A DNA stretch of 64,000 nt from Paramecium tetraurelia. Its lineage: Eukaryota > Ciliophora > Oligohymenophorea > Peniculida > Parameciidae. Where the stretch lies: contig NW_001799000.1 in the NCBI RefSeq assembly GCF_000165425.1, forward strand, positions 372,001-436,000, in the 5' to 3' direction. The notes beneath the pieces are model-generated. The model saw only the letters and a list, made by a program, of their open reading frames with translations, had not been told where the DNA came from and did not search any database. The position numbers and the translations under genes are program-made. Shown here piece after piece: positions 45,614-62,179 of the stretch (its first letter is position 1; every line of letters begins with the position of its first letter).

Positions 45614-48681
<3,068 letters not shown>

Positions 48682-50041: not shown

Positions 50042-52306
50042 ATGCGCAATCGAGTACTAAGCAAGGATGACGATAATGTTAAGGATTACTTCTCAACTTA
50101 AAAACGAAAACAAGACAATAACGTCTAATTTTGGTAAGGGTATATGTCAATTGCCCTCAACAGTACAGAAGCTGGAGTGAGATAATTCCTAACATAGATG
50201 AGAAGAAATGGCAGCTTTCAATAAATAGACAAAAAACAAAAACCTGCAGTTACTGAATAAGAATAATTATTGGAGACTCCAAATCATAGTATCGTCAAAT
50301 CTCTTGATCCTCAATTTCCTCCTTTCATTAGAAAAGTCAAGGAAATAACAAGCTATGAATTTCTATCTCAGATTTATGAGTTGCATAACAGAAAATAAAG
50401 AAATCAATCCTTAATAGAACAACTTATTGGAAAAACCAATAATGAAATTATTGTCTTTCCTAAAACCATTCATCGTAAGAACATCTAAAAAAGATCATAA
50501 CGTTGTCAATCTGTTGCCTAAAAAGACATTGAATTGGACAGCATGAAAGGACAACTAATCTAAGTGAAATAAGTTTAAGTTCAACCCATACCCAAAGAGA
50601 CAACTCCAAAACCGTTGAAGAGATTAATACCTATAATTAAATTAGAAAGGACTACTTCCCCTATTAAAAAGGTTCAAGCTCCATAATCCTAAACAAAAAA
50701 AAAGTTATTCATCGATGATACTAGGTATTGGGATTTAGGTTATATCAAATTTATATAATGTCCCAGCGTATAAGAAATAAATTAAATCATAAATTTTACA
50801 AATGCTCTTCAAGTTTTACCAGCATAACACTAAAAATACTATAAGCTTTATGTTGGTAGAGGGAATAATCACATGATGGTTAAAAGTATTTTTAGTATGC
50901 GTGCCTAGTGGACTGTAGGGGGAAACTTGGAGGAGGATGATTTTAACTTTATTTGGACACAAAAATTTATTGATTTTCCTTAATCTGAGATTAGACCTAT
51001 CCAGAGATCAATTAATAATGAAACAATTGAAGGATGGATTGATTCGAACGATTAAGCATTAATCAGATAGGCTTGGGATCGAGTGGAAGGAAAATCAAAG
51101 AAGAAGCTAGCTGATTACAATCTTGAAAGTTAGCCTCTTCTTAATAATGTAAGCAAATAATCCTATTTTATAGTTAAGTAATGTCAAAGAACTTCTCACA
51201 ATTAATCATTAAAATTAATCTATTAGAATTCATAATCATCTTAAGGAAGGAAATTAATTAGGAGATAAGAAATTTTTGTTTCTAAATCTAAGCAAACATT
51301 GTAAAGAAAACTAAATAGATTTATGGACTCTGATTCCTTTGACTTTCCATATATAAGGACCAAATGATGAATCCTTTACTCATTTTAAGAAAAAATTTGA
51401 TGAGGTTTCTGATGATCCAACATTCAAAAATATTTGGATCATTAAACCTGGAGAGGACAGCAATCGAGGACAAGGAATAAAAGGTATTTTTATTTTATTT
51501 TCTTAGTTTACAATAATTTAAATGAAATCTATTAACATATTTCTTAGTAAAATCATACTTTCATTCTATAAAAATACATAGAAAACCCATTTCTTTACCA
51601 AAAGAGAAAATTTGATATAAGGGGATATTGCCTTATCACAATAATTAATGGAGCGAAAAAAGGTAGTGATCATATTAATAAGTAGATAGTATTTTGGTAT
51701 AAAAAGGGATACCTCCGTACTTCAAGCAGTTTATTTAGTTTGGATTCACTAGACAATCAAAAGATCCATCTTACCAATGATGCAATTCAAAATAGAATGA
51801 ATGGATATGGCAAATTTGAGAAAGGTTTTGATTTCATAATTATTTCAGGTAATAAGGTTTCGTATGAGCAATTCTAGAATTATTTAATAGAACAGAATAA
51901 ATAAAATAATACAAATTACAGTTTCGAAGAGCTTTATAAAAATATGAAGGTAAATTACAATAAAAGTCACATTATTAGTAATTAACTAAGATAGCTTGTG
52001 CCTCAAGTATTAATTAGATCAATAACACTGATCAAGTTTTTGGATTTGAATTGTATGGTCTAGATTTCATGATTACTAATGAGTTTAAACCGATCCTAAT
52101 AGAATTCAATACAAATCCCTGTATTGAAACAGGATGTCCAGTTCTAGCCAAAATTATATCAGGACTATTAGATAATTTATTTAGGTAAAAAATTATTTCA
52201 TTTTTTGAGATTCATTATCGACCCACTCTTTCCTGCTAAAAAAACAAATCTTGATGATTTTAACAGTAAAAATGATTTTGAATTATTATTATAATCATAA
52301 TTATGA
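50042..52306 (+). CDS. Tubulin tyrosine ligase-like protein (TTLL)
   Basis: About 723 residues after introns of 25, 23, 20 and 25 nt. The N-terminal 240 residues are basic and unstructured. The TTL domain, an ATP-grasp fold, shows LSKHCKENQIDLWTLIPLTFHI, IWIIKPGEDSNRGQGI, YIENPFLYQKRKFDIRGY, KKGYLRTSS, HLTNDAIQ and FELYGLDFMIT, followed by ILIEFNTNPCIE with the metal-binding Glu and Asn. TTLLs add Glu, Gly or Tyr to tubulin tails in cilia. The motif set suggests a glycylase or glutamylase, but I cannot assign a subtype. A second TTL-family gene lies 8 kb downstream. Confidence 0.85.
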
Positions 52307-58066: not shown

Positions 58067-58595
58067 ATGGTTATCAAGACAGATTTGTGCTCTTTTAGTG
58101 AATGGAGAATCTATCCTGGACATGGAAGAAGATTCGTAGCCAAGGATGGCAGACTCTTCTATTACTTGAATTAAAAGAGCAGAGCTTTTAGTGCAAGAAA
58201 AGTATTGAATCTCTTAACATATAGATTAAATCTCAAGAAATCTAATGGACTGTTGCTTGGAGAAGATTAAACAAAAAGATTAAGACAGATGAAGGAGCTA
58301 AAAAGAGAAGAATCAGAAATCTTAAAGTCTAAAGAGCTATTGTTGGTATTTCTTTGGAAGAAATCAGAAGAAGAAGAAAGGAAGATGACAGTAATGCATA
58401 TTCTCATAATCCTTAGAAACTAGAAAGGCATAAGCTGAACAAGCTGCAAGAGAAATTAAGGATAGAAAGCAAAAGCAAATTGAAGCTTAAAAGAAGAAAC
58501 CTGCTGCAGCATAAAAAGTTGCATAAAAAGCTGAAGTCAAAGCTCAACAAAAAGCATAAAAAGGTGCTGCAAAAGCCAACAAAGGTAAAAAGTGA
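58067..58595 (+). CDS. RPL24: 60S ribosomal protein eL24
   Basis: 159 residues after introns of 23 and 26 nt. The N terminus is diagnostic (KTDLCSFSEWRIYPGHGRRF and AKDGRLFYYLNQKS), as is WTVAWRRLNKK followed by RAIVGISLEEI. The C-terminal tail is Lys/Ala-rich, as usual. eL24 sits on the 60S subunit and forms an intersubunit bridge with the 40S. Compared with animal eL24 the first residues are typical, but the zinc-binding Cys pair seen in some archaea is absent. Confidence 0.93.
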
Positions 58596-58659: not shown

Positions 58660-59243
58660 ATGGAAGAATTATGTTACACCATTCTTGGAATGGGTTTAGG
58701 AATTGTTGTATAACAAATACATGAGAAGTTATCCAAAAATAAAAAGTAGAATAAGCCACAATAATAGAATATGGGAACAAAGAAATATTTGCCATCTACT
58801 CCAGATATGAAAAAAGCATATCAAGAACAAAAATAAAACTTTCTAATTCGATAAGCATCTTAATAAGAGGTTGGTGATACAATTAGAAAGATAGTCAAAA
58901 TATAAGGCAAAATTTCAGGGTTTGATAATGATGATGAATTGAATTATATAAATAATTCATAAGAAGAAATTAAAGAAGATAATGACTCAAAAGAAGACAA
59001 TGATTCATAAGAAGAAAAGGCTTTCTAGCCAAAAACACCCAATTTTTAAAATAAATCCTCGACCTCCTAAAGTATTACATTGATCACAAATTAACTAGTT
59101 TCTAGTTAGTTATCTTTGGGATAATTACAATCTAATTAATTTAGCGATAGTAGTATTATTTTATCAATAAATAAGAAAAAAATATACCTCCTCCTGTTGA
59201 AAGTTAGGAATAAATTATAAATAGCAGCGATTCAGAATCATGA
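58660..59243 (+). CDS. Membrane-anchored acidic low-complexity protein
   Basis: 185 residues after one 26-nt intron. A short hydrophobic N terminus (LCYTILGMGLGIVV) may be an anchor. It is followed by basic and then acidic repeats (EDNDSKEDNDSQEE) and Ser/Gln-rich sequence ending in SSDSES. No domain was recognised. It starts 64 bp after eL24 on the same strand. Confidence 0.6.
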
Positions 59244-59440
59244 TTATAATATAAATTTTAAATATCAAAATCTTATACATTTATTTAATCAATCAAGAAA
59301 TTAATGTTTTCATAGATTAATAATTTTTCAATCAATTACATTTTTATGAATAAGGAATGATTAAGTCTTCTCATATCAATCATATCTCTCATCTTTTATA
59401 TTATTTTAGAATTAATTACGTTTTTTTATTAATTAAATTA

Positions 59441-59677
59441 ATGAATTATCAAGAATTAGAATAACATTAAAGAAGAAAACAAATTACTCTAAATGATGCT
59501 ATGTTTACAATATTTAAAAGAGCTATGGTAAAGAGTCCTTGTTTTATACCATTTATTATTATAATGACTCTCTTATTTGCTATTGGAATTTTGCATGAGA
59601 CTGGAATTAAACCAATTCATGAAATGTTTCCTCTTGGAGGTACAACTGGTGAATTCTTGAAATCTGAATAGATGTGA
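59441..59677 (+). CDS. Small single-TM protein
   Basis: 78 residues, no intron. After a polar start, a TM segment (CFIPFIIIMTLLFAIGIL) is followed by HETGIKPIHEMFPLGGTTG. It could be a small organelle-membrane subunit (inference). No family was recognised. Confidence 0.55.
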
Positions 59678-60255
59678 AACGATTGATAAACATAATAAAA
59701 CATTTTAATATTACTTTCTTATTATAAATTACTTATAGTTTATAATTATTTACATCTATTATTTGTCTTATGTTATTTATTGAAATACTTAATAATTTTA
59801 CAATTCAACTATTTACCAAAAAGAGTTAATTTATTCTTTTCAAAAAATTACAATAATGGTGTAAAAATTTAGGAATTTTATATTATTTAAATTTATTAAA
59901 TATTAAATTCAACTCTTGTATTAGTTATATATAATTAAGGTTATCTTATATAATAAGGAACTAGTATTAAAAAATAGCAGAATATTTTATATTGATAATC
60001 AAGTGATAAAATAATTAGTATAACACTATTTTTTTGATATATAATAAAAGGAACTAGCAAGGAATATTTGGTTCTAATAAAAATAAAAAATAATCCATCA
60101 AAAATATATAGATTATACATATGATTATTATAAGATCACATTAAATGGATTAGGACAATGTTTCGAAATATTTTATCAACTTTTATGAACTATAAATTCA
60201 TATTTATATTACTGAATAATACATATATTTACAAAAATTGCAATTTGAAATTTAA
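59678..60255. other. Intergenic, nothing recognised
   Basis: 578 bp of very A+T-rich spacer upstream of the NlpC/P60-TTL gene. No open frame with protein-like content was seen. Confidence 0.5.
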
Positions 60256-62179
60256 ATGGACCGCAATTTATAATCATGCTTCTAACAATTTCAAGTGAAA
60301 AGAAATCAAAATTTTCTATATCAAAAGTATGTCAACAAGGTACTGATGAAATATTAAATTAGACAAACAAAGAGAAAATGCCTGACGAAGAATTAAGATA
60401 GAAATTCATAGCACAAGCATTCAAATACGTTGGAGTTCCCTATCATAGTAGATATCATGATGAAACTTCTCCACACTACAATGCTCCTCTGTATCTAGAT
60501 TGTTCTGGACTGATCAGATAAGTAATTTATGATCTAAGAGAATACTTTGGATTCACTTTAGGAAAATGGAATTAAGCATACTAATATGATTTACTTGATA
60601 AGGAGATTGAGTTTTAAGACTTGAAACCTGGGGATCTAATATTTCTCTCTGGAACTTACTATGACAAATCTTGCAGAGCTTTCCAACATAATATTGTTCA
60701 TGTTGAAATTTATCTAGGAGGTGAAAGAACTATTGCTGCAAGATGGTAAAAAGGTGCAATTCAAGAATTTGAAACATACAAATTTGAATCACAAAATTAC
60801 TATGATATTAAATATCATTATAAATCCATACAACCTTGGTTAGAGGGAAAATGTGAAAGCTTTTGTGCTGAACATCCTTGGAGAGATGATAGAAATATAT
60901 GGGTTAGTGATAAATACTCAGTATTTGCTAAGAATTTACAATAAGTATTGCCTGCTGATTTTGTACATAAGCAAAGGGTGTATGTTGGATAAGGTAACAA
61001 TGCAGAATTAATTAAATCCTATTTCAGAAACTAGAATTATGAATTAATGGATACTGTTTAAGATGCGTTTAAAAATGATTATTTTATCAAGTGGGTCTAA
61101 TGTCCTTAAAGCATAAATTATTATGAATTCAAACCAGGCTAATAGATTGTATAATTATTTTACTATCAATATAGATCAATCATATACCTAAAGCATCTCA
61201 TAATTTAGGGCTCAAAATATCCATGTTGGAATTGTTGAGAGAAAATTAGTGTGAGGATGTTTTGCCTAAGACTTTTAGATTAAATCAAATCACTGAAGTT
61301 ATTGAATTTCTGAAGGACAATGAAGAAGGTATTTGGATATTGAAACCATATAATTTGAACTGTGGCAGAGGAATCAAATTCATAAGTGATATTGCCAGAT
61401 TTAAGTAGGATCTACACCAGAAAAGATAATATCAGATCGGAGACTATTATAAAGTGTATGTTGAAAACGAAAGGAATAAATTAAAATAAGAAATTCAAGA
61501 TCATTTGGGAATCAAAGAAAATGTTGACCCAGAACAATAATTAAAATATGATGATATTAATCCAATGTCCATCATATAAAAATATATTGAAAAACCCCTT
61601 TTGTTGGATGGTAGAAAATTTGATATTAGATGTTATGCTCTGATAGCTTAAGTGAAACCATATACAGTACTCTTTCATCACGGATATGCTAGATTGAGTA
61701 TTTTTGAGTACACATTGGATGACATTGAAAATGAATAGAATAAAATTATACATCTCACCAATAATGCAATCTAAAAAACTCATCCAACATATAAAGAGAA
61801 AAAAGAAAGTTCCATATGGACTATGGATCATTTAGAGCAATATTTACAAGACTTTTATCATTATTAAGTAGATCAGATTAAATCAATTAGAGAATAAATT
61901 AAACAAATTTCTCATAGAATCTTTAATGCTGGATAGAAAAAGATCCAAGCTGGAGGACAAAAAGGAGAATTTGAATTATTTGGGCTTGATTTTATCATAG
62001 ACGCAAACCTTAAAGTTTACTTTTTAGAGGCTAATATAAATCCAGCACTTTTTACTGAAAATCCCAATCTTAAATAGATTATCCCTTCAGTTGTTGAATA
62101 AACTTTAGACATAATTTTAGCAATTTAAAATAATCATTAATATTAGTTGGGAACATTTGAAGAATTAATAATTGAATGA
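60256..62179 (+). CDS. NlpC/P60-like cysteine peptidase fused to a tubulin tyrosine ligase domain
   Basis: 624 residues after introns at 60340-60362 and 61149-61174, with the exon sum an exact multiple of three. Residues about 40-200 form an NlpC/P60 fold: YVGVPYHS, then LYLDCSGLIRQVIYDL (nucleophile Cys75), LKPGDLIFLSG, and HNIVHVEIYLGGERTI (candidate His141). Residues about 290-610 are a TTL ATP-grasp domain: ASHNLGLKISMLELLREN, IWILKPYNLNCGRGIKF, YIEKPLLLDGRKFDIRCY, HLTNNAIQ, FELFGLDFIID and VYFLEANINPAL (Glu575, Asn577). NlpC/P60 enzymes cut amide bonds of gamma-Glu type peptides, and TTL enzymes form amide bonds on tubulin tails. A single protein that both adds and removes a modification is inference. 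The closest functional analogue I know is bacterial glutathionylspermidine synthetase/amidase. Confidence 0.88.
61149..61174 (+). other. 26-nt intron between the peptidase and ligase halves
   Basis: Begins GTATAATT and ends AATATAG. Splicing joins EFKPGQQI to INHIPKASHN, keeping one frame. Left in, the peptidase part would end at a TGA shortly after, near 61240. A canonical intron at the junction argues against two separate genes. Confidence 0.8.

Follow-up and report, generated by a model that had tools for sequence, protein, structure and literature searches.

An NlpC/P60 domain and a tubulin tyrosine ligase domain are joined in a single gene of Paramecium tetraurelia

Introduction

The pairing of an amidase with an ATP-grasp ligase is already known. 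Glutathionylspermidine synthetase/amidase and trypanothione synthetase, like the Paramecium tetraurelia protein described here, carry a papain-fold amidase and an ATP-grasp ligase in one chain and in the same order, and the ligase half of glutathionylspermidine synthetase/amidase belongs to a family other than tubulin tyrosine ligase (TTL). NlpC/P60 enzymes cut gamma-glutamyl bonds, classically beside the gamma-linked glutamate of peptidoglycan, and their canonical substrates contain peptidoglycan D-Glu, not L-Glu tails.

The amidase of glutathionylspermidine synthetase/amidase is of the CHAP type in the extract of the source available (PMC10318531). The eukaryotic NlpC/P60 enzymes described in the available part of a study of Trichomonas act on bacterial peptidoglycan, and NlpC and tubulin-tyrosine ligase are treated there as separate proteins (PMC12612818).

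Tubulin-glycylating enzymes have been identified. When TTL-like (TTLL) enzymes initiate glycylation, the amino acid is linked by an isopeptide bond to the gamma-carboxyl group of a tail Glu, as given in the accessible text of PMC12340829. The enzyme that removes the glycines is called unknown or unidentified in the accessible portions of two reviews (PMC5666887, 2017; PMC12838686, 2026) and a research paper (PMC11244163, 2024), and the last of these, in the same portion, reports up to 19 glycines on alpha- and 18 on beta-tubulin of Paramecium.

Results

A single spliced frame encodes both domains

The window analysed here is a stretch of 64 000 nucleotides from contig NW_001799000.1 of P. tetraurelia. 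One gene on the + strand (60276–62179; Table 1) was found to encode a protein of 625 amino acids (aa) that includes both domains, with a single 26-nt intron. The gene was read in the ciliate code (code 6), in which TAA and TAG specify Gln and TGA is the stop codon. Between positions 58500 and 64000, the standard code gave two frames of at least 80 aa, the longest 96 aa, and reading TAA and TAG as Gln gave 29, with both exons among them, which marks the stretch as ciliate DNA. An in-frame TGA is located upstream of exon 1 at 60246.

Table 1. Features of the fusion gene and of the comparator TTLL gene (positions in the window)
Feature	Coordinates	Strand	Description and evidence
Exon 1	60276–61148	+	291 codons, open in code 6; carries the NlpC/P60 domain and the TTL N-lobe
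NLPC_P60 core, residues 73–164	60492–60767	+	Pfam 6.5e-8; PHROG 9.2e-12; alignments
TTL N-lobe, residues 220–291, NLQQVLPA...YVGQGNN	60933–61148	+	blastp E 2e-6; alignment score 81
Intron, 26 nt, GTA...TAG, GTATAATTATTTTACTATCAATATAG	61149–61174	+	Frame-keeping; codon-usage frame switch
Exon 2	61175–62179	+	TTL ATP-grasp domain, terminal TGA; Pfam TTL and PDB TTL/TTLL3/TTLL6 matches
Alternative 5' end (ATG 60256, putative 23-nt intron 60340–60362)	60256–60362	+	Unnecessary for open frame
Second TTLL gene (comparator, outside the fusion)	50801–52251	+	tblastn; in-silico spliced model, Pfam TTL 2.5e-44

Profile searches of the spliced protein matched both NLPC_P60 (PF00877; E 6.5e-8, 32.9 bits against a cut-off of 23), within the first 250 residues, and TTL (PF03133; E 4.2e-48, 164.5 bits against a cut-off of 20.1) at residues 289–608, the latter match spanning positions 8–286 of the 292 in the profile. 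A peptidase-ligase fusion in one gene had been proposed in a first-pass annotation of the window, and with both Pfam families above their cut-offs in a single spliced frame, the fusion of NlpC/P60 and TTL is confirmed at the DNA level.

The intron predicted in the same annotation, 61149–61174, is the sole frame-keeping candidate: among GT-AG introns of 18–35 nt with a donor in 60800–61239, this one and no other allows reading to continue to the final TGA. Without this intron, the frame of exon 1 stops at TGA 61236. Codon usage, scored weakly after training on nine long frames from the window whose status as genes was unchecked, was best in frame 0 in all seven scoring intervals starting at 60300–61020 and in frame 2 in seven of the eight starting at 61140–61980, and this switch agrees with the intron.

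Translation had apparently been started at ATG 60256 in the first-pass annotation, which gave the numbering Cys75 and His141 for the NlpC catalytic residues. That ATG does not share the reading frame of exon 1 and demands an extra intron at 60340–60362, a possible GTA...TAG stretch that nothing in the analysis supports, and the codon score was −0.061 for 60256–60339 versus 0.021 for 60276–60362. Either start may be used, with ATG 60276 requiring no further intron; the Cys and His motifs were recovered as described, and from ATG 60276 they are numbered Cys76 and His142.

A short frame on the + strand at 59240–59677, directly upstream of the fusion gene, includes a hydrophobic segment, PCFIPFIIIMTLLFAIGIL. 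Two adjacent + strand frames at 45774–48681, with SNF2/helicase and SLIDE/Myb matches, look like a single ISWI-type chromatin remodeller, perhaps with a short intron between them. A homologue of IFT81 is among the other eukaryotic genes of the window.

The join lies within exon 1

A second TTLL gene is located ~8 kb upstream of the fusion gene, the coordinates in Table 1 being its approximate extent, and its introns were inferred at 51149–51173, 51484–51506 and near 51849–51890. The introns inferred across both TTL genes are 23–29 nt in length with GTA...TAG ends, a size that points to Paramecium. Residues 220–294 of the fusion protein align to the N-lobe encoded by the second gene (blastp, E 2e-6 for that pair), and a search of the whole window with residues 220–250 gave E 0.001 (tblastn). 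The alignment score of the C-terminal segment of exon 1 against this gene was 81, compared with 53 for the best of 1000 shuffles, and in a negative control using the NlpC part, 690 of 1000 shuffles reached the real score. When the same C-terminal segment was compared with the N-terminal frame of L001, a TTL gene from a bacterial metagenome-assembled genome (MAG) described below, the result was not clearly above chance, with 41 of 1000 shuffles reaching the score. Assignment of a TTL N-lobe to exon 1 is therefore due to the match with the paralogue, the comparison with L001 giving no clear support.

As the NlpC core and the start of the TTL part (from about residue 220) are found in one uninterrupted exon, the fusion is independent of splicing, and splicing at 61149–61174 is not critical to any refutation of it. 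It is hardly credible that two adjacent genes were wrongly joined, or that the arrangement is an assembly artefact, because the NlpC domain and the TTL N-lobe share an uninterrupted exon of 291 codons with steady codon usage, and the sole intron needed falls where the Pfam TTL match begins.

The ligase half belongs to the TTL/TTLL family

Exon 2 alone matched the solved chains of TTL (1e-18), TTLL3 (4.6e-18) and TTLL6 (4.6e-16) in the PDB, TTL and TTLL3 being the best solved relatives. The Paramecium protein has in common with this family a full ATP-grasp domain, the N-lobe and the KFDIR, HLTN, LDF and E-x-N motifs. However, it also bears an NlpC/P60 domain, whereas the solved TTL/TTLL chains matched the TTL part only.

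Lys348, Arg443, Arg464, Asp563, Glu576 and Asn578, which we take from TTL structures to be the ATP/Mg and substrate (catalytic) positions, are all present. Arg443, Arg464, Asp563 and Asn578 do not vary among the five aligned TTL sequences or fragments, and Lys348 is Lys in all three of the rows covering that position. Glu576 is Glu in four of the five aligned TTLs, with Gln found in the solved TTLL3 chain. The PF03133 match and the presence of Glu576 and Asn578 are in accord with the first-pass description of a TTL ATP-grasp domain complete with its metal-binding Glu and Asn. The structure predicted for exon 2 with one TTL relative had a mean pLDDT of 34.7, which is too poor to judge the active site.

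Between GRGI and QKYI there are 67 residues (residues 359–425; positions 61376–61576), making this stretch ~42–45 residues longer than in L001 (25) and the second TTLL gene (22), the two aligned TTLs that span the region. The stretch LLLDGRKFD...HGYARL...NPAL may resemble that of TTLL10-type polyglycylases, none of which was among the PDB matches. The counterpart of Gln180 of TTLL6 in the fusion protein would be Cys354, and substrate typing via this position was set aside because the mapping is provisional. Gln180 is an elongase position in the part of PMC12366701 that was available.

The NlpC/P60 half retains Cys and His but has Ala at the third triad position

Exon 1 alone matched PHROG 329 (E 9.2e-12, residues 23–179) and the solved NlpC/P60 chains 4fdy (E 3.9e-5) and 3npf (E 1.5e-3). 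The catalytic order is canonical and unpermuted, with Cys76 in Asp75-Cys76-Ser77-Gly78 followed by His142 in HVxIY, and the order of DCSG then HVxIYLG, together with the sequence matches, is shared with the NlpC/P60 (C40) peptidases (3npf, 4fdy, Spr/MepS). Cys76 and His142 are invariant in both NlpC alignments. Five NlpC proteins from viral contigs, three of which are near-identical to each other, all share Tyr56, Asp75, Cys76, Ser77, Gly78, Gly119-Asp120-Leu121 and His142 with the Paramecium protein.

Unlike the C40 peptidases, the Paramecium protein has Ala at the third triad position, longer loops ahead of the Cys and of the His, no export signal that could be seen, and a TTL domain fused to it. 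A third polar triad residue, His or other, was absent from the NlpC half in a comparison with the eight relatives that cover the position, in which Ala154 corresponds to His in seven (3npf, 3pvq, 2k1g and the viral-contig proteins L003–L006) and to Asp in one (the viral-contig protein L007). This substitution went unmentioned in the first-pass annotation. Placement in the NlpC family is based on the profile match and the Cys and His motifs, and full catalytic competence is not claimed. The structure predicted for exon 1 with five NlpC relatives had a mean pLDDT of 43.5, too poor to judge the active site, and a fold search with this low-confidence model gave no matches at E ≤ 0.001.

On these residues, the NlpC half may hydrolyse by means of an atypical Cys-His pair, or it may serve as a binding module. 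If the latter, a degenerate, non-hydrolytic domain would bind glutamyl or glycyl tails and position the TTL ligase on its substrate. Ala154 in place of the usual His or Asp is consistent with this, but Cys76, His142, Tyr56 and the whole of DCSG have been kept, as a decayed enzyme need not do, and a Cys-His dyad may suffice for catalysis. Such a loss of activity is a serious alternative, though less likely than not.

The closest NlpC relatives found were bacterial or phage enzymes, as would be expected if the protein were a peptidoglycan enzyme acquired from bacteria and directed at symbionts or at bacteria taken as food, its TTL part being incidental. In Trichomonas, NlpC/P60 enzymes gained by lateral transfer break down the peptidoglycan of bacteria, as stated in the available part of PMC12612818. 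However, no hydrophobic, signal-peptide-like stretch was found at the N-terminus with either ATG (the highest mean hydropathy over 19 residues was 0.22 and −0.25 for the two starts), and the same chain includes an intact-looking TTL domain, making a peptidoglycan-directed role very unlikely. The lack of a signal-like start suggests the cytosol or the cilium as the probable workplace of the protein.

Distribution of the fusion

Among the three TTL-bearing genes examined, an NlpC match at E ≤ 0.01 was found in the fusion gene only. The spliced model of the second TTLL gene gave no NlpC match at this threshold, and no families were matched at E ≤ 0.01 by the 549-residue frame upstream of it. The third gene, L001, was the single locus recovered when genome contigs were scanned with the TTL alignment, and no NlpC match was found in the five frames scanned, with ~600 bases available upstream of its TTL frame.

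L001 (132–1785), a TTL gene of eukaryotic appearance, is carried by a 4.2-kb contig (JARLIC010000011.1) assigned to a Candidatus Paceibacterota MAG. PF03133 was matched in 26 of 379 genomes drawn from Candidatus Paceibacterota, and the match was near-full-length (1.3e-51) in the genome carrying L001 only, the other 25 being partial (covering no more than 92 of the 292 positions, the strongest at 4.9e-8). As a near-full-length TTL is found in one of the 379 genomes, L001 is probably a eukaryotic contaminant introduced into the bacterial MAG by binning.

No relative was found in viral contigs with the exon or TTL queries, an absence that is weak because these scans need short, near-exact peptides. 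The NlpC-alignment query recovered five loci from viral contigs, which were interpreted as encoding bacterial or phage cell-wall proteins. Neither exon was matched in the phage search. In the plasmid search, three records weakly matched exon 1 (bacterial NlpC; best E 7e-4) and exon 2 was unmatched.

Discussion

The probability that the gene encodes a cytosolic TTLL-family ligase that has gained an N-terminal, bacterial-type NlpC/P60 amidase, and that would both build and trim amino-acid tags, is put at roughly 0.45, judged from the sequence. The TTL half would add glycine or glutamate to the acidic tails of tubulin or of another protein, and the NlpC half would hydrolyse gamma-glutamyl-linked or adjoining amide bonds of the tail side chains. 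One protein could then set the length of the tag via both synthesis and trimming, in the manner of glutathionylspermidine synthetase/amidase. Tag editing is suggested because a domain of a type that cuts gamma-glutamyl amides has been fused to one of a type that makes them. The first-pass annotation had likewise suggested that the protein could be an editor of a peptide tag; the chemistry fits, but Ala154 at the third triad position weakens the proposal.

The glutathionylspermidine synthetase/amidase precedent, also raised in that annotation, is valid solely as an analogy, as the amidase there is CHAP, in contrast to NlpC/P60 in the Paramecium protein, and the ligase is not TTL. With E values of up to 10 admitted, the Pfam scan listed seven families, including NLPC_P60 and TTL, with CHAP and the glutathionylspermidine-type synthetase absent, and neither glutathionylspermidine synthetase/amidase nor trypanothione synthetase was among the Pfam and PDB matches listed. 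The fusion protein could nevertheless be a two-way enzyme of this kind for small molecules or peptides, acting on a soluble conjugate and not on tubulin, since it too combines a papain-fold amidase with a ligase (CHAP members, in the available extract of PMC10318531). However, the amidase is NlpC/P60 rather than CHAP, and the ligase belongs to TTL (4.2e-48), whose known members modify protein tails, and a soluble conjugate is thus an improbable substrate.

No description of TTL and NlpC/P60 in one protein was found in the literature covered, which did not extend to the likeliest comparative surveys, a 2003 paper on the NlpC/P60 superfamily and a 2009 paper on amidoligases. The version with TTL and NlpC/P60 is therefore apparently undescribed, though an earlier description may exist, and ciliate databases may already display this layout.

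Returning to the reading of a ligase that has gained an amidase, a more specific form of it is that writer and eraser are in one chain, the NlpC/P60 domain cutting the gamma-glutamyl isopeptide branch, or a chain attached to it, built by TTLL enzymes on tubulin tails. This form is unlikely. Ala154 and the canonical D-Glu peptidoglycan substrates would both count against an amidase that acts on tails. An amidase built into a TTLL protein and acting on gamma-glutamyl-linked side chains is nonetheless a testable candidate for the tubulin deglycylase, and with tubulin so heavily glycylated, a ciliate such as Paramecium may well need such an enzyme. If the proposal is correct, the protein would become the first known deglycylase of tubulin, or else a branch-cutting deglutamylase, and the eraser would be a cysteine amidase, unlike the metallocarboxypeptidases known as deglutamylases. 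A TTLL gene with its own amidase domain provides a named gene and a named cysteine that are open to a simple knock-down or in-vitro test.
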